Of a stretch of 37,192 nt of DNA, positions 2,340 to 15,158 are shown in pieces. The notes below the pieces were generated by a model. It saw nothing but the letters and a program-made list of their open reading frames with translations, did no database searches and had not been told where the DNA came from. Location: contig NZ_JH725022.1 of assembly GCF_000278135.1 (NCBI RefSeq), forward strand, positions 549,011 through 586,202, in the 5' to 3' direction. Position 1 is the first letter of the stretch, and each line of letters opens with the position of its first letter. This DNA is from Candidatus Bartonella washoeensis Sb944nv. Its GTDB lineage: Bacteria; Pseudomonadota; Alphaproteobacteria; Rhizobiales; Rhizobiaceae. Both the position numbers and the translations under genes were made by a program.

Positions 2340-3269
2340 TTAGCCATCCCAGCGTCTATGTAACCACATCCATTGTCCTGGATATTCACGGACCCAGTTT
2401 TCAACAATATCATTTAATTTCTGGGTAGAAGCAGCTATATCAATTTCATTGTTTTCATCAAGTGGAAGTTTTACACGGTCATATAGCTCTAAACGATGGC
2501 GTCCTCTAGGTAGACGGATACAGCGTGCTGGATAAATATCACAATCATATTGGCGAGCAAGTTTTATAATTAAGGGATTAGTTTTAAGTGGTCTGTCAAA
2601 AAATGTTCCCACAATACCTCGGCGAAATTTTTGATCAATGAGCATGCCAACATTTTTACCTTCTGCTAACTTAGCTGCTAATGCCCAAGCTGCACCAGCT
2701 TTGGAAGGAACGAGATGCCCCATGGAAGTTTGCCGTGCTTTAAGAACTCGTTTTGCAATATAGGGGTTATTGGGTGGTCTAAATAACACTGTAACATGAA
2801 GATCAAAACTTTGTGCGCATATGGGGAGAAGTTCAAAGTTTCCGGTATGCGCTGTAAAGAAAATATGCGGTTTTTTTTCATTTTTTAAGCGCTCGAATAT
2901 TTCAGCACCTTTAACCTCAATAAGACCTGGCTGGTTTGCATGAGGATCAAAATCAAAAATTTTATCAAGAAAAATATATTCGGCTATAAAGCGTCCTATA
3001 TTTTCCCACATTTCTATTGCAATGGAATGAAGTTCTTGTTCTGTTTTTTCTGGATATGCAGCTCTAAGGTTTGCAAGTGCAATTTGATGACGAAAGAAAA
3101 GGGGACCAAATGTTTTAGCTAACCAGGAAAAAAAAGAAAATCCAATGTTGGTGGGGAAATATTTTAGAATACATAAAGAGCCAATGAGCAAATGTGCGTA
3201 CAAAAAATCAAATGATTTTTTAACTATAATTTTAATACGATAAATAAGTTTTTTAATATAAAGCTTCAT
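2340..3269 (-). CDS. lpxXL: Very-long-chain lipid A acyltransferase LpxXL (LpxL/HtrB family)
   Basis: The 309-residue protein belongs to the LpxL/HtrB lysophospholipid acyltransferase family. It has an N-terminal hydrophobic anchor (about residues 24-38) and the catalytic HX4E motif HTGNFE (H141, E146). Further family segments are LLIDQKFRRG, FFDRPLKTNP and a C-terminal PGQWMWLHRRWDG. By family and neighbourhood it should transfer a 27-hydroxyoctacosanoyl-type chain from AcpXL to lipid A at the inner face of the inner membrane. The ATG at 3269 lies six bases after the adh stop with no clear ribosome site, so translation is probably coupled. It is the last lipid gene of the acpXL cluster. Confidence 0.9.
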   Translation of the reverse strand: MKLYIKKLIYRIKIIVKKSFDFLYAHLLIGSLCILKYFPTNIGFSFFSWLAKTFGPLFFRHQIALANLRAAYPEKTEQELHSIAIEMWENIGRFIAEYIFLDKIFDFDPHANQPGLIEVKGAEIFERLKNEKKPHIFFTAHTGNFELLPICAQSFDLHVTVLFRPPNNPYIAKRVLKARQTSMGHLVPSKAGAAWALAAKLAEGKNVGMLIDQKFRRGIVGTFFDRPLKTNPLIIKLARQYDCDIYPARCIRLPRGRHRLELYDRVKLPLDENNEIDIAASTQKLNDIVENWVREYPGQWMWLHRRWDG

Positions 3270-3275
3270 TATAAT

Positions 3276-4304
3276 TTAATCGATTTTGAGAATAATTTTA
3301 CCAAAAACATCACGGCTTTCCATTCGTTTTAAAGCTGTATCAATTTCATCAAATTTAACAATGGTATCAATGACAGGATGTACAATTCCTTGTTCCATTT
3401 TTTGCATGGCATTTTGCATATTTTCTATACGACAGCCAAATGAACCAAATATTTTGAGCTGTTGTTGAAACAATTGCATAAGATTCAGTGGTGCTGAAAC
3501 ACCAGAAGTAGAACCACAAGTTACCAAGCGTGCCCCTTGTTTCATACATAAAAGAGAACCGCTCCAAGTATCGGCACCTACATGCTCAAAAACAACGTCA
3601 ACGCCTTTTTTTTGGGTTAATTTGCGCACAACACCTTCAAAACGATCTTTACGGTAATTAATAACGTGATCCGCTCCAAGAGATTGCGCCTTTGCAATTT
3701 TGTCATCTGATCCTACGGTTGTAATAACTGTACATCCCATATGTTTTGCGAGTTGAATGGCTGCTGAACCGATACCAGAACCACCCGCTTGTATCAGAAT
3801 TGTTTCTCCTACTTGTAGTTTTGCGTTATCGAAAAGCATATGTTCTACAGTACCAAAAGTAATTGGAGCGACGGCTGCTTGTAGTTCATTGCATTTCGGA
3901 GGGGCTGGAACCAATAGACGTGCTGGCAGATTAACAAGTTCACAAGCAAATCCATCAAGATGAAAACCGTATACGCCTTTTACCTGACTGCAGAGATTAT
4001 CATGTCCTTCACAGCAAGCTTTGCATATTCCGCAGGTTTGAGCACCATAAATTGAGACAATCTGCCCAAGTTGTAAATTTTTAACATCACTCCCTAGTTG
4101 AATAATCTTACCAGAAGCTTCTGCACCAATTACGAGTGGCATTTTTCTTTTAGCAAAAGCCATACCACGCCATCCCCATACATCAATATGATTAAGAGCA
4201 ACGGCTTTTATACGCACAGTTACTTCATCGGGGCTAGGTGGTGGTGGCGGGGCAATATTGGTAATTTCAAGCCGGCGCTCATCAAACAGTTGCAGTGCAC
4301 GCAT
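3276..4304 (-). CDS. Zinc-type alcohol dehydrogenase/quinone reductase of the acpXL cluster
   Basis: This is a medium-chain dehydrogenase/reductase. The N-terminal GroES-like domain includes the structural-zinc cysteine cluster CGICKACCEGHDNLC, and the NAD(P)-binding fold shows GGSGIGSAAIQLAK. The usual first catalytic-zinc cysteine is not seen (NHIDVWGWRG is at that region), so it may act more like a quinone or enoyl reductase. In rhizobial acpXL clusters the corresponding gene (adh2XL) is thought to act in very-long-chain hydroxy fatty acid synthesis; the exact reaction is inferred. An ATG at 4310 abuts the Shine-Dalgarno AAGGGGG, so the ATG at 4304, six bases further, is the better start (342 residues). 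fabF1 ends 62 bases upstream on the same strand. Confidence 0.88.
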   Translation of the reverse strand: MRALQLFDERRLEITNIAPPPPPSPDEVTVRIKAVALNHIDVWGWRGMAFAKRKMPLVIGAEASGKIIQLGSDVKNLQLGQIVSIYGAQTCGICKACCEGHDNLCSQVKGVYGFHLDGFACELVNLPARLLVPAPPKCNELQAAVAPITFGTVEHMLFDNAKLQVGETILIQAGGSGIGSAAIQLAKHMGCTVITTVGSDDKIAKAQSLGADHVINYRKDRFEGVVRKLTQKKGVDVVFEHVGADTWSGSLLCMKQGARLVTCGSTSGVSAPLNLMQLFQQQLKIFGSFGCRIENMQNAMQKMEQGIVHPVIDTIVKFDEIDTALKRMESRDVFGKIILKID

Positions 4305-4366
4305 TATCATCCCCCTTAAAATATATGTTCTCAGACTAAGTATAACGAAGTTTGATCATAAAAGGA

Positions 4367-5641
4367 TTATCCTTTATATGCTGTAATAACAAGGCTAGTA
4401 TTTTGGCCGCCGAAGCCAAATGAGTTTGACAGAACCGCATTGACACAAGCTTTACGGCTATAATTAGGAACAACGTCTAAAGGGATAGCAGGGTCAGGAT
4501 CATCGTAATTGATTGTAGGGGGAATTATTCCCGATTGAATAGTTAAAAGTGAGAAGATAGCTTCTATTGCACCTGCTGCAGTTAATGTGTGTCCAATCAT
4601 TGATTTATTAGAAGAGACTGGAATATGTTCTAAAAGGTCGCCGAAAACTGTTGATAATGCGAGATACTCCATCTTTTCATTTTCTGGTGTTGAGGTTCCA
4701 TGTGCATTAATATAGTCAATTTCATTGATGGTTATTTTTGCATCATCTAAGGCTTTGCGAACTGATTCAATTGCTGGTGATGCATCGGGCTTTGAACGCG
4801 TACGATGAAAATCATCTGCTGTTTCTCCACAGCCAGCCAAAATTCCTAAAATTGTTGCATTACGATCTAATGCGCTTTTAAGAGATTCAAGGACAAGAGC
4901 ACCTGATCCTTCTGCCATAACAAAACCATCTCGGTCACGGCTAAATGGTTTTGCTGCTTTTTCTGCAGGATCATTTTGGGTTGAGAGAGCGGATAATAAT
5001 GAAAAGCGAATAAGGGATTCTGCTGAAACTGAACCATCTGTAGCAATCGTAAGCACACGATTTGTTTCTCCTCGCCGAATAGATTCCACACCTAATTGAA
5101 TCGCTGTTGCACCAGATGCACAGGCGGTAGAGAGTGTAACAGGAAGTCCTTTTGTTCCAAATTTTCTTTGAAGCTTTTCTGCAATTGCACCAAATTGTGT
5201 AGCTTCAAATAGGACCTTATGGTTTTTATGACTGCAAACTTCAAGAAGATGAGCATAAGAAGGTTCACTATTGAATGCTTCCTCTTGATCAAGGGCAAAA
5301 CGTGCTGTCCATTCAAGCTCAACAGGAGGAGCCGCTAAAAAGAGTGGGCCATCAAAATTTGTTTTGTCAAGAGCTGCTTGCTCTAAAGCTTCCTCTGCTG
5401 CTAGATACGCGAGTTTTTCAGAGAGAGCTGAAGCACCAAGCCTACTTTCGTTAAGAAAATCGACCGTTCCAGCAATACATGTATTTAATCCCTCAACGGG
5501 AAAGCGAGTTATTTTATGGATGCCACTAACGCCATTTGTTAATTTTTGCCAATTTTCGTGTTTGCCTTGCCCCAGTGATGTTACAACTCCTGTTCCGGTT
5601 ATTGCTACAAGTGGGCGTCCAAAATGGTCGTTATATTTCAC
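4367..5641 (-). CDS. Beta-ketoacyl-ACP synthase II, catalytic partner (FabF1XL)
   Basis: This KAS II-type condensing enzyme extends acyl-ACP by two carbons from malonyl-ACP. The full catalytic set is visible: the nucleophile Cys in LSTACASGA (C174), the first His in NAHGTST (H314), the Lys in SNKSMIGH (K346) and the second His in IGHTLTAAGA (H351), counting from the GTG start. A TTG at 5659 lies inside the Shine-Dalgarno GAGGAGG, so the GTG at 5641, nine bases after it, is chosen (424 residues). The ribosome site lies within the end of fabF2, so the two genes are tightly coupled and probably made in similar amounts. It is expected to work on AcpXL-bound chains. Confidence 0.93.
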   Translation of the reverse strand: MKYNDHFGRPLVAITGTGVVTSLGQGKHENWQKLTNGVSGIHKITRFPVEGLNTCIAGTVDFLNESRLGASALSEKLAYLAAEEALEQAALDKTNFDGPLFLAAPPVELEWTARFALDQEEAFNSEPSYAHLLEVCSHKNHKVLFEATQFGAIAEKLQRKFGTKGLPVTLSTACASGATAIQLGVESIRRGETNRVLTIATDGSVSAESLIRFSLLSALSTQNDPAEKAAKPFSRDRDGFVMAEGSGALVLESLKSALDRNATILGILAGCGETADDFHRTRSKPDASPAIESVRKALDDAKITINEIDYINAHGTSTPENEKMEYLALSTVFGDLLEHIPVSSNKSMIGHTLTAAGAIEAIFSLLTIQSGIIPPTINYDDPDPAIPLDVVPNYSRKACVNAVLSNSFGFGGQNTSLVITAYKG

Positions 5642-5655
5642 TATAGAAATCCTCC

Positions 5656-6831
5656 TCAAGCAGCAGTTAAGCGTACTATACCTTCAGCTCTTTGTATACC
5701 AATGGTTGTAACAAATGCTTCACATACTTCTTTATGAAAAGGTTTTTCATGAGCACTTAACGCTGGAAAACTGCGCCTTTTTTTTACAGCAAGGGCAGCA
5801 AGCGCAAGTGCTAAAGGAAATTGCGCTTCTCGCATATAACCAAATAATGTTGTAATACCACGGTAAAACATATCGGCATCATTTAGAGCACTTTGTTCTG
5901 CTTGTGTCACTTCATGAAAGCCTGATGCAGCTGAAATAGCTAAGGCGGATCTAGCATCTATTGTTTTCAACATTGTCGCAATTGATTTTTTAAGCGGAAT
6001 TTTTGTTCTGTTTATTTGATCTGTTATAATTTGGCTAATTTCAGCATAAACACGTGCATTGCGTTTTTTTGCGTGTTCTCCGCTTTCGAGGACTAGGAAA
6101 ATACCACCTGAACCAGTTATGACACCACCGCCAAGACAATTTTTACGTTCCCATACTGGTTTCCATCCACTGCGTGTTAAGAGACCTCCAAGTTCATGTG
6201 CCAACAACATATCATAGCTTTGTGCATTATAGGAGCCTCCTATCAATGCATGTGTACTCTGCCCTGATCGAATACGAGCTGTGGCACTTTGAAGTGCAGC
6301 AAGTCCAGATCCTTCTTCTCCCATGAAGGTACGGGAAGATCCAGTTACTTTATGAACAATTGAAATATTTCCAGCCAAGAGATTTGAAAGTTGTGCTAAA
6401 AACAAAGTGGGGCGAAGTTCAGATGAAAGAGCTGAATTTAACATGGAATCATGATCAGCTATCGTGCGTGCTTTAGAAAGAATTTGTGTATCAACAATAA
6501 TATCACGCTCTCCTCCACCTGCTGCAACAATCATATCCATTGTCGAAGTTAATTGTTCATTATTTTTCATACCTGCATCATCAAGAGCAAGACCCGCGGC
6601 GTAGGTACCAAGACGCTGCCACGTTCCCATTTGCCGTTGATCACTTCGTTTTGGAATTTGCAAATTCCAGTCAACTTCGGCTAATCTATGGACAGTGTAG
6701 GGTGAAAAAGTTGTACAATCGAGGTTTGGTGTGACTGTCGGATCATTTAAAAAATCCCAATGACGCTCAACCCCTTCAGCCAGAGAGCTTACGAGTCCTA
6801 TACCCGTGATAAATACTGCTTGATCATGCAT
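5656..6831 (-). CDS. Ketosynthase-like protein lacking catalytic residues (FabF2XL)
   Basis: The 391-residue protein has a ketosynthase fold signature: VFITGIGLVSSLAEG at the N-terminus, GSGGIFLVLESG in mid-protein and a thiolase-like C-terminus. The catalytic set is gone. Where active homologues have TACASG, this protein reads GEEGSG (E173 at the cysteine position). No NAHGT or IGH counterpart is present; ISAASGFHE stands near the first histidine site. The C-terminal part is also short. By analogy with polyketide chain-length factors, it probably forms a heterodimer with FabF1 and shapes the product length; this is inference. It starts at ATG 6831, nine bases after the acpXL stop. Confidence 0.88.
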   Translation of the reverse strand: MHDQAVFITGIGLVSSLAEGVERHWDFLNDPTVTPNLDCTTFSPYTVHRLAEVDWNLQIPKRSDQRQMGTWQRLGTYAAGLALDDAGMKNNEQLTSTMDMIVAAGGGERDIIVDTQILSKARTIADHDSMLNSALSSELRPTLFLAQLSNLLAGNISIVHKVTGSSRTFMGEEGSGLAALQSATARIRSGQSTHALIGGSYNAQSYDMLLAHELGGLLTRSGWKPVWERKNCLGGGVITGSGGIFLVLESGEHAKKRNARVYAEISQIITDQINRTKIPLKKSIATMLKTIDARSALAISAASGFHEVTQAEQSALNDADMFYRGITTLFGYMREAQFPLALALAALAVKKRRSFPALSAHEKPFHKEVCEAFVTTIGIQRAEGIVRLTAA

Positions 6832-6840
6832 GGTAAAAAA

Positions 6841-7125
6841 TTAACCAGCCTGTTTTAAGGCAACGAGTTCATCAATTTTTGCACAAAGATTTTTAAGAAC
6901 AAAATATTCTTCAGTTGCAACTGTACCTTCATTGACTTCTTGGGTCCATTGTTCTAGCGGAATTTTAATTCCAAAAGCTTTGTCAATAGCAAAAACAATA
7001 TCAAGAAAATCAAGACTATCGATTCCTAAATCATCGATTGTATGGCTTTCAGATGTGATTATGTTGCGATCAATTTCGCTGATTTCTGCGATAATATCAG
7101 CAACTGTATCGAATGTAGAGGACAA
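6841..7125 (-). CDS. acpXL: Acyl carrier protein AcpXL
   Basis: This dedicated acyl carrier protein serves very-long-chain lipid A fatty acids. The phosphopantetheine attachment site is in [12 protein letters not shown] (S37). The following text ([18 protein letters not shown]) and the C-terminal [10 protein letters not shown] match the AcpXL type rather than housekeeping AcpP. The open frame can be extended to an ATG at 7170. However, the TTG at 7125 starts a protein of 94 residues reading [12 protein letters not shown], the family length and N-terminus, and has AAGGA nine bases upstream, so TTG is preferred. It is the first gene of the minus-strand cluster. The 188 bases before it should hold the promoter. 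Confidence 0.95.
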
Positions 7126-7313
7126 TGTATAATTCCTTGTTATAGGGTTAGTAAAAAAATTAAAATACACTTAATACTATTTTTTAGCCTTTTTTTCTTT
7201 TAAAAAAAAGCTAAATTCAGAATATAGCTATCCTTTAAATATAGCAAAAGAGTTTGCAGTGTATGAAATACTATATTGTAAACTTTAAAAAACTTTGAAA
7301 TTTTATTGTGAGT

Positions 7314-10598: not shown

Positions 10599-13500
10599 CT
10601 ATTGGATGCGGTCACTTGCATGAGCAAGCAGAGTGTAAACTTTTCCAGTATCTGATATCAGATATTTTCGAACTGATTTGGAAGAACCAGAACTGCGAGA
10701 TATATCGCGTAATAGTTTTTCAAAATCTGTGATATACTGATTAACTGAATTTTTAAAATTAACATCGCTCATATACTTTTTCTTGACTGTTTCAAATATC
10801 GCTTTCCCATTTAAAGTATAAAGACGTTCTATCACGATGTTTTTTTGTCCACGCCGGTAATTATCCCATAGCTCAACGATAGCATTATGGTTAATGGCTC
10901 GTACTATACCAGCTGCTAATGAATTAAGCGATTCATTTACAGGACGCGGTTTTGTTTGTACTGGTGCAAAAACAGTATCATCAGGCATCTTCTCATACAA
11001 AGTCTCTTCGCGTGAAGCTCTTTCTAAGAGACTTGATACCCATTTATTTTGCCTTTTTTTACTTTGGTCTTGTTGCAAAATAGGTTTAGGCGGCACTATC
11101 TTCTTGATGATTTCAGGAGAGATATTATCACTTCTGTTAAGTGGTGTTGATGTAGGAATTGCTGATATTAATTTGTCGTTTGCATTACTTTGATTGTTTT
11201 TTTGTATAACACTTACCAAATCCTTTAATGCTGTAATTTGTTCATTCAGAGCAGAGCGGATTGTTTGCGTTGTTTCTTTTGTCTTTTCTGGCAACTTGTG
11301 AACGTTTTCATTAATATCATTATTAATTTTTGAAAGTTCTAAGCGAATTTCATGAGCTGAGCGACGTATATCTTCTGCTGCTCCTGAAAAACGTGAGGAT
11401 GCTTCATTAATAAGTTGGTTAAGTGATTGTTGGAGTGAGTGTGTGGAATTACGTGCATTTTCATCAGTGCGTTCAAATGCTAAACTGAGAACATTTTCAT
11501 AATGTTCGATCAGTTTATTGATTTCATTAGACTTTGAAACAAGAGCATTGCTTAATGCAGAGAGCGTGTTGTGTTTTTCCTCAAGTGTTGCACTGAGTGA
11601 ATTTTCAGACTGTTCGAGAACGTGAATGGTTTGAGAGAGCGTTTTAGCATGTTCACCAAAACTGTTTGTTATCTGACTAATTCTTTCAAATGTGTTTTGT
11701 GAGAGTCCTTGTAAAGCCTCCACATTATTATTGAGCACTTGATTTGAGGCGGATAAATGTTCTGCCACTTGCTGGGTGTTGCGGAAAAAATTATTCGCAG
11801 TTTCACTAAACTGACCATCAATATTTTGAACTGCTGATAATAAAACATTACTGTTTTCGTGGAAGCTATAAATTGATTGATTCAATTGCGTAATGATGGA
11901 TGAAACATTATTGACGAGATCCTCCTTCATAGCAGTTACAGTTTGAAGTGTTTCAGAGTTGGTTTGTGTCAAGCTCTTCACTAAAGATTCATTTTGTGCA
12001 TAAATTCTTTGTTCAGCGTCTTGTGTTGAGAGAGAAAGCTGTTCACTGATATGCTGTGTTAAATTACCAATTGAATCGGTTGTATTCTGCGCAGCTTGAT
12101 TTAAATAATTTGTCAATTCTGTGAGTTTTCCAACGTGTCCTGAAATTTGAGTAGCTGTCTGACTTCTTGCTTCTTCCAAACGATTGCTTACGTCAGAAAG
12201 TTGATCTCCTAGATTATTTTTAAGATTCTGCATAGAATGGTGAAGAACATTGCAGCGTTCACTGAGTACTTCTTCAATCGCTGTCGCTGAAGTGTGGATT
12301 GTTTGATTTAACAATGTTTGTGCATTATGGCTTGCTGTGGTGAAGGCTTCCACAGTATGAGCTGTCTTCTCAGACAGAACGGAAAGAACTTTTTCACTTG
12401 TCTCATAAACTGTTTTTTTAACGTTTGATACAAGACGATTGCCAGACTCCGAGAGAATATTCTCTGCTTTTTCAGCAACATTAGCAACAGATGAAATTAT
12501 CTGTTCACCCGTAGAAGAAAATACATCAGAGGCTTTTATAATTTTATCATGCAAGTTGCCTGTAACTGTATTAACGGAATCCTCTAATGTGAGACGTATA
12601 TTATCGACGCTTGTTTCTAATGCTTGTTGAATTGCTTGGCTTTGTTCATTATTAAGGATGATAGATGTTTGTAATATATCAGAGCGTTCTCCGAAAGCAG
12701 ATGTTTGTGTCTCGATAGTTTCACATACTTGATCAATTTTTTCGGATAATGTTTCTTCTAGCGTGGCGGCACGTTCAAAAATTTTGCGTGCACGAACTTC
12801 TAGGTTTGTATCAAACGACTCCATGTGTGTTTCAAGAGCTTCAAAGAATTTACCGTTAGATTGAGAAAGAGTATTTTTTAGAATTTCAGTATGGCCTTCG
12901 AGGTTTTTTATATGACCTTGAACAGTTTCAGTAATGTTCTTGTTATTGGTAACAATTGCGTTCTCAACTAAATCTATCTGTTGTTTTAACGCGACATCAA
13001 CACGTATATCGCTTTTTGCGATGAGATTATGGATTGTTTCCATCCGTTGTTCGAGTGTGCGTGCCTGATCTGCAAGAACTTCGTTAAGAGAAAAACTATT
13101 AATAGCCAAAGAGTCACGCAAAGCATCAGCACGTATATCAATATTCCTAGCTTGTGCTTCTAAAGCATCTTTAGTTGTATTGCAGCTTTGTGTAATAACT
13201 TCTTGTAGCCTTTCGGTGCACTGCGCTATATTTTCCATATGGGTTTCAGCATGCTGATCAATGATTTGAACATTATTCTTCAAAACCTTTTCAATACTTG
13301 AAGCATTTTGAGCTAAGACATCAATCTGATTTTTTAATGTATCAGCGATTTTATTCTTTTCGCTGTCGAGCATATCTGCCATCATATCTCTTTGATCGGA
13401 AAGTTGTAATTTGAAATCCTGCGAGCGTTCTCGTATGATATCGACAATTGCGTTATCAACATTTTTAATCTCTTCTCTCAGCGTTTCTTTGCTTTTGTCA

Positions 13501-15158
13501 ATTGCAGAAAGAATATTATCGTGTCCGCTTGTGAAAGCGTTAGTAATATCAGTTGTTCTTTCTTTGAGACTTGCATTGATTTGCGAGGCGTGTGATTCTA
13601 AAAATTCACCAAGCTTTTCAGCATTATCTTCTAGAGTTTGAGTGCGAGCAATGAAGGATTCGATTATAGAATCACTGTGTTCTTTAAGAGAGAGATCAAC
13701 AGTTGCTAAACGATTTTCAAAGGCTTCAATTGCTTCTGAAGTTACATTATCAAATTTAGAAGAGAGTTTATATGCCTGCTCATCGAGCTGCATGATTTTC
13801 TCATCAAAATTCTGTAAAGATTGATTATTGCGATCAACAATAACTTCATCTAGTGTTCTCAATTTTTCATCAATATTGTGCAGAGTCTGATCTGTTGCTG
13901 CTTGTATATGCGTTGCAATTTTAGCGATATGCATTTCAGCTTTAGAAGCTGCTTCATTAAAGGTTTTCTCTATTTGTTTTTCATTATTATCAAAACGTTC
14001 TGAGAAACCATCAAAATTTTTCCCTAATTCATGGAAAAACTCTGTGTTTTTTTGCTGAATCTGTGTCGTGGTTTCGTTAAACTTTTCAGCAAGCTGACTT
14101 GTTACGCCGTCGCCAGCACAGGAAAGTTTTGCAACAAGCTCTTCCCCTTGTTTTTGTAACGTCTGGGAAAGAGTTTGCGCAAGCTTTTCAACATTGGTTA
14201 CAATTTTAGAGGTAACCAAACCAAATTCATCACTCAGTTGTTCCTGTGTTCCTTTAATTGTTGACTGTACGCGATCAGCATGATTCAAAATGGCTATGCG
14301 TTCATTGCTTAATTCTTTGATTAACGTATGAATGCGCGATTCGTTTTCAGCATAGGCTTGTTCTAGATTATGAACCTCACCTTGTATAATAGCTTCAAGC
14401 TCAACAGCACGTCCAAGGGTACGTTCAATTCCCTCGTTCATTGCTGCTACTTCATCACGAATGGTCTGTCCTATAGCAACAGCTTGTTTTTCAGATATAT
14501 GCGGTTCGCTGAGACGCTGTGCAGCATTTGTCATAAGAACGGCAATATTGTGCAATTCATTTGAACGTTTTGTGAGTTGAGCAAACCCCCAAGACATAAG
14601 GATAGGAATTATTGTTCCAGTTGCTACAGCCAATCCAGTTGGAGATGTAAAAAAGGTAATAATATTTGTTAAGGAACCAAGCCCGGCAGGAGCCAGTTTA
14701 TGAGCAATAAAAGCACCTCCTGCTGCCCATAGAGCACTAAGAGCTGTTGTACACAAATAGATTCGAGATACAGAGCTCTGCTTTAATGTTTGAAAATTTA
14801 AAGGAGTTGTTAGATCATCATTAGCGGGGAGAGGTTGTGCAGACAACAATGTTTTGTTTACAGTTCCACCCGAAAGCTCACGTGTAGGTTTGGGGGCAAA
14901 AAGCTGTTCAACAACGGATTCATCGACAACAGTGTTATCATGAATATTCGGTACGAGAATTGAAGCGCCATTTTCAGCGAAAATCTCTTCTTCTGCCATT
15001 GCAATTTTTTGAATCAAATCATCTACATTCACGACATTTTCGAAATTATTGGATGATATCGTTTCAATTCTGGCATCATCAAAGTTGAAGTTCATAGCTT
15101 TTGTGAGGGCTTCTTCAACTCCAACTTCAAATGTTTGTAATTTGGTCCTGCGTGCCAT
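10599..15158 (-). CDS. Giant coiled-coil membrane protein, growth pole ring (GPR/RgsE) type
   Basis: This 1519-residue protein has a charged N-terminal cytosolic segment and two hydrophobic helices (about residues 131-153 and 171-194). A very long run of Ala/Glu/Ser/Thr/Gln/Asn-rich helix without prolines covers about 200-1340. A conserved-looking C-terminal domain covers about 1400-1519 (ELWDNYRRGQ, KAIFETVKKKYMSD). The early coiled-coil text (SAMNEGIERTLGRAVELE-like; here AAMNEGIERTLGRAVELE) matches rhizobial proteins often labelled kinesin-like or apolipoprotein-like. These include Agrobacterium GPR and Sinorhizobium RgsE, which organise polar growth. It is clearly shorter than the Agrobacterium protein (about 2100 residues, from memory). 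The ATG at 15158 follows GAGGAG closely. It is flanked by a long upstream gap and a strong terminator, so it is probably its own unit. Confidence 0.8.
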   Translation of the reverse strand: MARRTKLQTFEVGVEEALTKAMNFNFDDARIETISSNNFENVVNVDDLIQKIAMAEEEIFAENGASILVPNIHDNTVVDESVVEQLFAPKPTRELSGGTVNKTLLSAQPLPANDDLTTPLNFQTLKQSSVSRIYLCTTALSALWAAGGAFIAHKLAPAGLGSLTNIITFFTSPTGLAVATGTIIPILMSWGFAQLTKRSNELHNIAVLMTNAAQRLSEPHISEKQAVAIGQTIRDEVAAMNEGIERTLGRAVELEAIIQGEVHNLEQAYAENESRIHTLIKELSNERIAILNHADRVQSTIKGTQEQLSDEFGLVTSKIVTNVEKLAQTLSQTLQKQGEELVAKLSCAGDGVTSQLAEKFNETTTQIQQKNTEFFHELGKNFDGFSERFDNNEKQIEKTFNEAASKAEMHIAKIATHIQAATDQTLHNIDEKLRTLDEVIVDRNNQSLQNFDEKIMQLDEQAYKLSSKFDNVTSEAIEAFENRLATVDLSLKEHSDSIIESFIARTQTLEDNAEKLGEFLESHASQINASLKERTTDITNAFTSGHDNILSAIDKSKETLREEIKNVDNAIVDIIRERSQDFKLQLSDQRDMMADMLDSEKNKIADTLKNQIDVLAQNASSIEKVLKNNVQIIDQHAETHMENIAQCTERLQEVITQSCNTTKDALEAQARNIDIRADALRDSLAINSFSLNEVLADQARTLEQRMETIHNLIAKSDIRVDVALKQQIDLVENAIVTNNKNITETVQGHIKNLEGHTEILKNTLSQSNGKFFEALETHMESFDTNLEVRARKIFERAATLEETLSEKIDQVCETIETQTSAFGERSDILQTSIILNNEQSQAIQQALETSVDNIRLTLEDSVNTVTGNLHDKIIKASDVFSSTGEQIISSVANVAEKAENILSESGNRLVSNVKKTVYETSEKVLSVLSEKTAHTVEAFTTASHNAQTLLNQTIHTSATAIEEVLSERCNVLHHSMQNLKNNLGDQLSDVSNRLEEARSQTATQISGHVGKLTELTNYLNQAAQNTTDSIGNLTQHISEQLSLSTQDAEQRIYAQNESLVKSLTQTNSETLQTVTAMKEDLVNNVSSIITQLNQSIYSFHENSNVLLSAVQNIDGQFSETANNFFRNTQQVAEHLSASNQVLNNNVEALQGLSQNTFERISQITNSFGEHAKTLSQTIHVLEQSENSLSATLEEKHNTLSALSNALVSKSNEINKLIEHYENVLSLAFERTDENARNSTHSLQQSLNQLINEASSRFSGAAEDIRRSAHEIRLELSKINNDINENVHKLPEKTKETTQTIRSALNEQITALKDLVSVIQKNNQSNANDKLISAIPTSTPLNRSDNISPEIIKKIVPPKPILQQDQSKKRQNKWVSSLLERASREETLYEKMPDDTVFAPVQTKPRPVNESLNSLAAGIVRAINHNAIVELWDNYRRGQKNIVIERLYTLNGKAIFETVKKKYMSDVNFKNSVNQYITDFEKLLRDISRSSGSSKSVRKYLISDTGKVYTLLAHASDRIQ

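Follow-up and report, generated by a model that had tools for sequence, protein, structure and literature searches.

A ketosynthase and a probably inactive partner of the same fold may elongate the very long lipid A chain of Bartonella as one enzyme

In the KS-alpha/KS-beta pairs of type II polyketide synthases (actinorhodin, 1TQY; AntD-AntE; Iga11-Iga12), an active ketosynthase (KS) stands beside a KS-fold partner without a nucleophile, the chain-length factor (CLF). The two genes are adjacent, and a dedicated acyl carrier protein (ACP) serves the pair. A second KS-CLF heterodimer, the aryl polyene enzyme ApeO-ApeC, works in a fatty-acid-like reducing pathway of Gram-negative bacteria (PMC8358021; this and the other papers are cited from excerpts), and ordinary FabF (KASII) is a homodimer. 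Here we analysed a stretch of 37,192 nucleotides from Candidatus Bartonella washoeensis Sb944nv (the window), in which two adjacent genes encode the KS-like proteins FabF1 and FabF2. They belong to the cluster AcpXL-FabF2-FabF1-dehydrogenase-LpxXL, whose established role is to synthesise the very long acyl chain of lipid A and to attach it (PMC11901934, PMC5613085). Such chains are made by rhizobia and the kin of Bartonella, and the lipid A of B. henselae carries 28:0(27-OH), or C26/C28 (PMC3361297, PMC4102455).

We propose, with a probability of roughly 0.72, that FabF1 and FabF2 would pair as an obligate 1:1 heterodimer and elongate the C26-C28 acyl chain on AcpXL in the manner of a KS/CLF pair. 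The association of an active and a dead ketosynthase is the likely part of this proposal. That FabF2 also fixes the final chain length is plausible and is its least certain part. The genes and active-site positions concerned are as follows.

6841..7170, minus strand: AcpXL, the dedicated acyl carrier protein (NF005079/PRK06508, 178 bits; the family match begins at residue 17 of the open reading frame, ORF)
5656..6831, minus strand: FabF2 (fabF2XL), an ORF of 391 amino acids, putative pseudo-ketosynthase subunit (NF005084/PRK06519, 599 bits, above the cut-off of 320)
4367..5641, minus strand: FabF1 (fabF1XL), 424 amino acids with a GTG start, putative catalytic ketosynthase (NF005076/PRK06501, 774 bits, above the cut-off of 629)
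6313..6318, minus strand: FabF2 codons for E172 (6318-6316) and E173 (6315-6313), the latter at the Cys163 position of FabF
5120..5122, minus strand: FabF1 nucleophile Cys174
4589..4702, minus strand: FabF1 His314 (4702-4700), Lys346 (4606-4604) and His351 (4591-4589)

Conservation was assessed in 135 rows, each an adjacent FabF2-FabF1 pair with FabF2 above 200 bits and FabF1 above 350 bits. The rows derive from 30 FabF2 loci in 30 of the 38 genomes of the order that carry FabF2 (one being the window's own), from the best 80 of 579 confirmed loci, a choice that biases this set towards close relatives, and from additional stretches. Three of the 80 loci (L049, L104 and L111) were left out because they were cut, lay on another contig or scored low; also left out were L137, L138, L148, L149 and L150 of a 16-stretch set. 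The window locus occurs four times (the window, L003, L004 and L012) and two other loci occur twice. The rows hold 128 distinct FabF2 sequences at 99.9%, which fall into 88 clusters at 90%, 59 at 80% and 35 at 70%.

FabF1 retains the Cys-His-His-Lys set of an elongating ketosynthase. Cys is present in 135/135 rows and each of His, Lys and His in 134, with one row gapped; in the window these are Cys174, His314, Lys346 and His351, numbered from the GTG at 5641-5639. A reading of the window made from its sequence alone (the sequence-only reading) had already noted this intact site, along with a Glu in place of the nucleophile of FabF2, and the wider comparison bears out both observations. The second Glu of the FabF2 motif GEEGSG, E173, aligns with Cys163 of Escherichia coli FabF, also when hhalign is used. 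This position is Glu in 131 rows, Asp in four and Cys in none, and the pattern is unchanged in kind after clustering (84 Glu and 4 Asp at 90%, 56 and 3 at 80%, 35/35 Glu at 70%). The preceding residue, 172, is Glu in every row. Nor does FabF2 have a conserved Cys elsewhere, the best Cys column (residue 95) reaching 66/135.

The other catalytic positions of FabF2 are also altered. The first His is replaced by Gly (101), Ala (32), Ser (1) or Asn (1), and the Lys by Ser (52), Gly (42), Thr (23), Ala (12), Asn (3), Gln (2) or Pro (1). An earlier tally of 106 FabF2 and 107 FabF1 sequences gave the same picture (E173 position: 103 Glu, 3 Asp). The absence of both His motifs, claimed from the window sequence, holds for the window itself, which has A301 and Y332 at these positions, and across the family for the first His only. 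The second is His in 109 rows, Tyr in 17, Gln in five, Asn in two and Thr in two, so its loss is lineage-specific. All 17 Tyr rows are Bartonella (the four window copies and 13 others), and the earlier tally contains one further Tyr, outside Bartonella.

Database names and published descriptions in the excerpts call both proteins beta-ketoacyl-ACP synthases, 3-oxoacyl-ACP synthases or elongation proteins; the sequence-only reading, too, had noted that both are usually described as ketosynthases. Taken literally, these names would make FabF1 and FabF2 two ordinary active ketosynthases with different chain-length preferences. This is very hard to reconcile with a FabF2 family in which Cys, the first His and Lys are each found in 0/135 rows and FabF-like gating loops are missing, and we consider it close to untenable. 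The PRK06519 family name, beta-ketoacyl-ACP synthase, is probably wrong. What FabF2 does have is a predicted KS fold with a replaced nucleophile, as in KS-beta proteins.

The strongest argument for a joint enzyme comes from the way in which the remaining functions are divided. In E. coli FabF, carrier docking involves Lys65, Arg68, Lys69 and Thr270, with a second region at Arg127, Lys128 and Arg206, and I108 is a gate (PMC7138838). The corresponding FabF2 segments are these.

6607..6660, minus strand: FabF2 residues 58-75, conserved basic helix, predicted to dock the ACP (K61, R62, R66, R73)
6490..6519, minus strand: FabF2 GGGERD....D, residues 105-114, aligned with the I108 gate segment of FabF
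6313..6414, minus strand: FabF2 R140-E173, near-invariant block, aligned with FabF 130-163

FabF2 carries Lys or Arg at positions 61, 62, 66 and 73 in 129, 134, 135 and 133 rows, respectively. Its R66, the equivalent of FabF Arg68, is Arg in all rows, and the Lys69 equivalent is Gln in 134. The same segment of FabF1 is shortened, with Lys or Arg in 2/135 rows at the Arg68 column and 0/135 at the Lys69 column; the residue that hhalign places at Arg68 is basic in 1/135, and the neighbouring positions 68 and 76 are basic in 52 and 56 rows. The gating loops show the opposite distribution. FabF1 keeps Asp265 in 133 rows, Thr270 in 134 and Phe400 in 132 (the other three being gapped), whereas in FabF2 position 265 is gapped in all 135 rows, Thr270 is present in 25 and Phe400 in two. 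Little remains of the second docking region in either protein: Arg206 is Ser in all FabF1 and Arg in seven FabF2, Arg127 is basic in 28 FabF1 and one FabF2, and Lys128 is basic in 28 FabF1, with an acidic residue in its place in 132 FabF2. Judged from these alignments, chemistry and gates would lie in FabF1 and a remnant docking helix in FabF2. Because the losses are complementary, neither protein appears to be meant to work alone. The ishigamide complex likewise has its ACP in contact with the CLF, chiefly at helix II, and for ApeO-ApeC an ACP contact through conserved CLF arginines has been proposed (PMC8358021).

In the proposed heterodimer, FabF1 would supply the Cys-His-His-Lys chemistry and both gating loops, and FabF2 would take the place of the second FabF1 protomer, receive AcpXL through its basic docking helix and close the far end of the FabF1 acyl tunnel. 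A tunnel that crosses the dimer interface and is closed by FabF2 could accommodate a longer chain than the tunnel of a FabF homodimer does.

FabF2 also has the near-invariant block R140-E173 (consensus RPTLFLAQL.NL.AGNI..VH...GSSRTFMGEE). It covers FabF 130-163, including F133 (L143 in FabF2, 133/135 rows) and the strand before Cys163. Residues of this kind face the partner in KS dimers. Around the gate, FabF2 G107, R109, D110 and D114 are invariant, and FabF1 has the motif P-x-E-x-x-W at the I108 segment (P106 in 134 rows, E108 in 130, W111 in 134). This motif and the missing basic docking helix set FabF1 apart from FabF homodimers, which it resembles in its full catalytic set and gating loops. 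In the ishigamide synthase a charged residue, Asp113, releases the intermediate for reduction, and ApeO-ApeC is described without a counterpart (PMC8358021). By analogy, FabF1 E108 could act like Asp113, although the alignment there is uncertain. A bolder extension is that the invariant or near-invariant charges of FabF2 (E172-E173, E108-R109-D110, D114 and D207) line the shared tunnel end, where they would sense the (omega-1) hydroxyl as the chain grows. The polar tail, in addition to tunnel depth, would then signal that C26-C28 has been reached, and FabF2 would be an independently evolved, hydroxyl-reading CLF of membrane lipid synthesis; we regard this as a long shot.

The two families are also strictly paired. 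Of 150 genomes of the order, 38 have both FabF1 and FabF2 scoring above the family cut-offs, and no genome has one alone above its cut-off. FabF2 lies upstream of FabF1 in 135/135 pairs, and AcpXL, FabF2 and FabF1 are consecutive in 80/80 of the best 80 of 579 loci, where three FabF1 genes are cut by contig ends and three are split between frames. In a sample of 249 genomes from the phylum, FabF2 occurs in 22, of which 21 belong to the order and one lies outside it, in the same class. A distant cluster from outside the order but within the class (L135, 4106-9239; FabF2 395 bits) reads AcpXL, FabZXL, FabF2, FabF1, dehydrogenase.

Pairs also travel apart from the lipid A cluster. Of seven plasmid regions that we opened, L133 and L134 belong to the FabF2-FabF1 family, and an annotated CLF is present in three of the remaining five. 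In L133 (2748-5269) the pair sits on a Bradyrhizobium plasmid, predicted to be conjugative, behind a methyltransferase gene. Neither AcpXL nor LpxXL was found in the 9 kb fetched, and the plasmid pair may make another lipid. Two contigs from genomes of one family, L136 (2695-7974 and 14279-16822) and L139 (851-5876 and 11142-13685), each carry two FabF2-FabF1 pairs, of which one belongs to an AcpXL-FabZXL cluster and the other does not; the few kilobases retrieved around the second pairs showed no AcpXL. Joint presence, fixed order and pairs apart from the cluster are how a two-subunit enzyme would behave.

The published genetics fit a shared FabF1-FabF2 enzyme. A fabF2XL insertion in Agrobacterium fabrum leaves lipid A without any very long chains, and supplying the gene in trans partly restores them (PMC11901934), and in Bradyrhizobium ORS278 no mutants could be obtained in acpXL, fabZXL, fabF1XL or fabF2XL (PMC5613085). 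The chain loss in A. fabrum points to a need for FabF2, not to control of length.

The same chain loss (PMC11901934) would follow from damage to any essential step, and thus suits a different account in which FabF1 is an ordinary homodimer and FabF2 a separate homodimer with a non-condensing task. FabF2 could then use Glu173 as an acid or base for priming or decarboxylation, for example, or serve as a scaffold that holds AcpXL. Glu172 and Glu173 are kept as if functional, and so, in most rows, is the second His. We judge this account unlikely, though worth keeping in view, since it sits poorly with the strict pairing of the two genes in presence, in order and outside the lipid A cluster, and with a FabF1 that lacks the conserved docking helix expected of a self-sufficient KS. 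Nor does FabF2 look like the KS-Q decarboxylases, in which Gln replaces Cys and both His are kept: it has Glu or Asp at the Cys position and never the first His.

Some considerations weigh against the heterodimer proposal or its CLF label. The partition of docking helix and gates was noticed after the fact, and the part of FabF1 on which it rests is difficult to align. Joint inheritance is also seen among genes that merely serve the same pathway. Finally, FabF2 lacks two defining features of the CLF family, the Gln replacement and the gene order.

The last point concerns how closely the pair mirrors KS-alpha/KS-beta, as the sequence-only reading had suggested. The partnership of a KS with a dead KS is well supported, and an acidic residue precedes the Cys position both in the three CLFs compared (Asp, Asp, Glu) and in all 135 FabF2. 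The likeness fails in several particulars. The usual nucleophile replacement in a CLF is Gln, and three annotated CLFs have Gln, Gln and His where FabF2 has Glu or, in four rows, Asp. The Lys335 equivalent is kept in 3/3 CLFs and never in FabF2. KS-alpha comes first in the three regions with an annotated CLF, whereas the dead partner comes first in every FabF2-FabF1 pair, and the FabF1/FabF2 pathway yields a hydroxylated, fully reduced fatty acid destined for lipid A. In ApeO-ApeC, the partner ApeC has arginines proposed for ACP docking and a Glu142 at the cavity end (PMC8358021), and FabF2 differs in being full length, ApeC being compared by its published description only. No aryl polyene genes are annotated in the stretch of E. 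coli CFT073 that we examined.

The phylogeny covered 51 rows (20 FabF2-FabF1 pairs, three KS-alpha, three CLFs and five other KS), and in it FabF1, FabF2, CLF and KS-alpha each occupy one side of a branch. The best tree joins CLF to KS-alpha (support 97/95) and places FabF2, on a stem of 1.98, weakly next to FabF1 (79/55). The idea that FabF2 is a genuine KS-beta homologue that came, along with FabF1, from a type II polyketide synthase draws on the acid shared with the CLFs and on two clades that were not rejected by the approximately unbiased test: FabF2+CLF (p-AU 0.31, with three CLFs only) and FabF1+KS-alpha+CLF (p-AU 0.24). The best-tree grouping, the reversed gene order and the Lys335 difference make such an acquisition quite improbable. 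A separate origin of FabF2 and CLF is favoured, and the heterodimer that we propose is probably a separately evolved or long-separated version of a KS/CLF-like pair.

If the proposal is correct, a family that databases label as ketosynthase consists of dead partners, and KS/CLF logic, familiar from antibiotics and pigments, extends to lipid A. Two proteins and a single carrier protein would then be enough to test chain length. In the open-access literature searched, in excerpts, we found neither FabF2XL named as a CLF nor an account of how the length of the very long lipid A chain is set; the FabF1-FabF2 pairing may explain where this happens.

Further features of the locus are listed here.

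5642..5655, minus strand: FabF2-FabF1 junction, 14 nucleotides, with a GGAGGA Shine-Dalgarno sequence directly behind the FabF2 stop
3276..4310, minus strand: zinc-type dehydrogenase at the adhA2XL position
2340..3269, minus strand: LpxXL, lipid A very-long-chain acyltransferase (NF005120, 489 bits)

For FabF1, a start at the GTG at 5641, behind GGAGGA, is more likely than the TTG at 5659 at which the ORF mechanically begins; it is this choice that puts the two genes 14 nucleotides apart with the Shine-Dalgarno sequence touching the FabF2 stop. Translational coupling, another element of the sequence-only reading, is possible but is not special to this pair, as AcpXL-FabF2 and dehydrogenase-LpxXL are separated by 9 and 6 nucleotides. 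Because other gene pairs of the operon are equally close, we rejected coupling as weak evidence of 1:1 stoichiometry. FabF2-FabF1 gaps range from 0 to 173 nucleotides in the 72/135 pairs for which a crude rule found a start.

The source genome encodes four PF00109 ketosynthases, namely FabF1, FabF2 and two others named FabF and FabB from their sequences. FabF1 is 33% identical to E. coli FabF, and the closest solved structures are ordinary FabFs (252 bits for FabF1, 51 bits for FabF2). AlphaFold2 (AF2) models have predicted local distance difference test (pLDDT) scores of 84.7 for FabF1 and 90.7 for FabF2, for which a KS fold is predicted; ranking CLF against FabF by predicted-structure similarity left all candidates tied. 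The window FabF2 is 79-83% identical to those of 12 Bartonella loci and 64-65% identical to those of B. apihabitans and three uncultured Bartonella.

The dedicated dehydratase FabZXL gives no match above 30 bits in the 80 loci, in which AcpXL and FabF2 adjoin directly (6831-6841 in the window). A whole-genome search of the window's genome returned a single weak match (49-56 bits), interpreted as the housekeeping FabZ, as did 5/5 other tested genomes of its genus or a neighbouring genus, and 5/5 other genomes tested have a strong match (134-267 bits). Use of the housekeeping FabZ is already known for Mesorhizobium, from a table note on M. loti (PMC7663294). Elsewhere in the window, an ORF of 1519 amino acids (10599-15158) has a single Pfam match at E 1e-10, to an apolipoprotein-like family (110 bits), and probably encodes a long coiled-coil protein.
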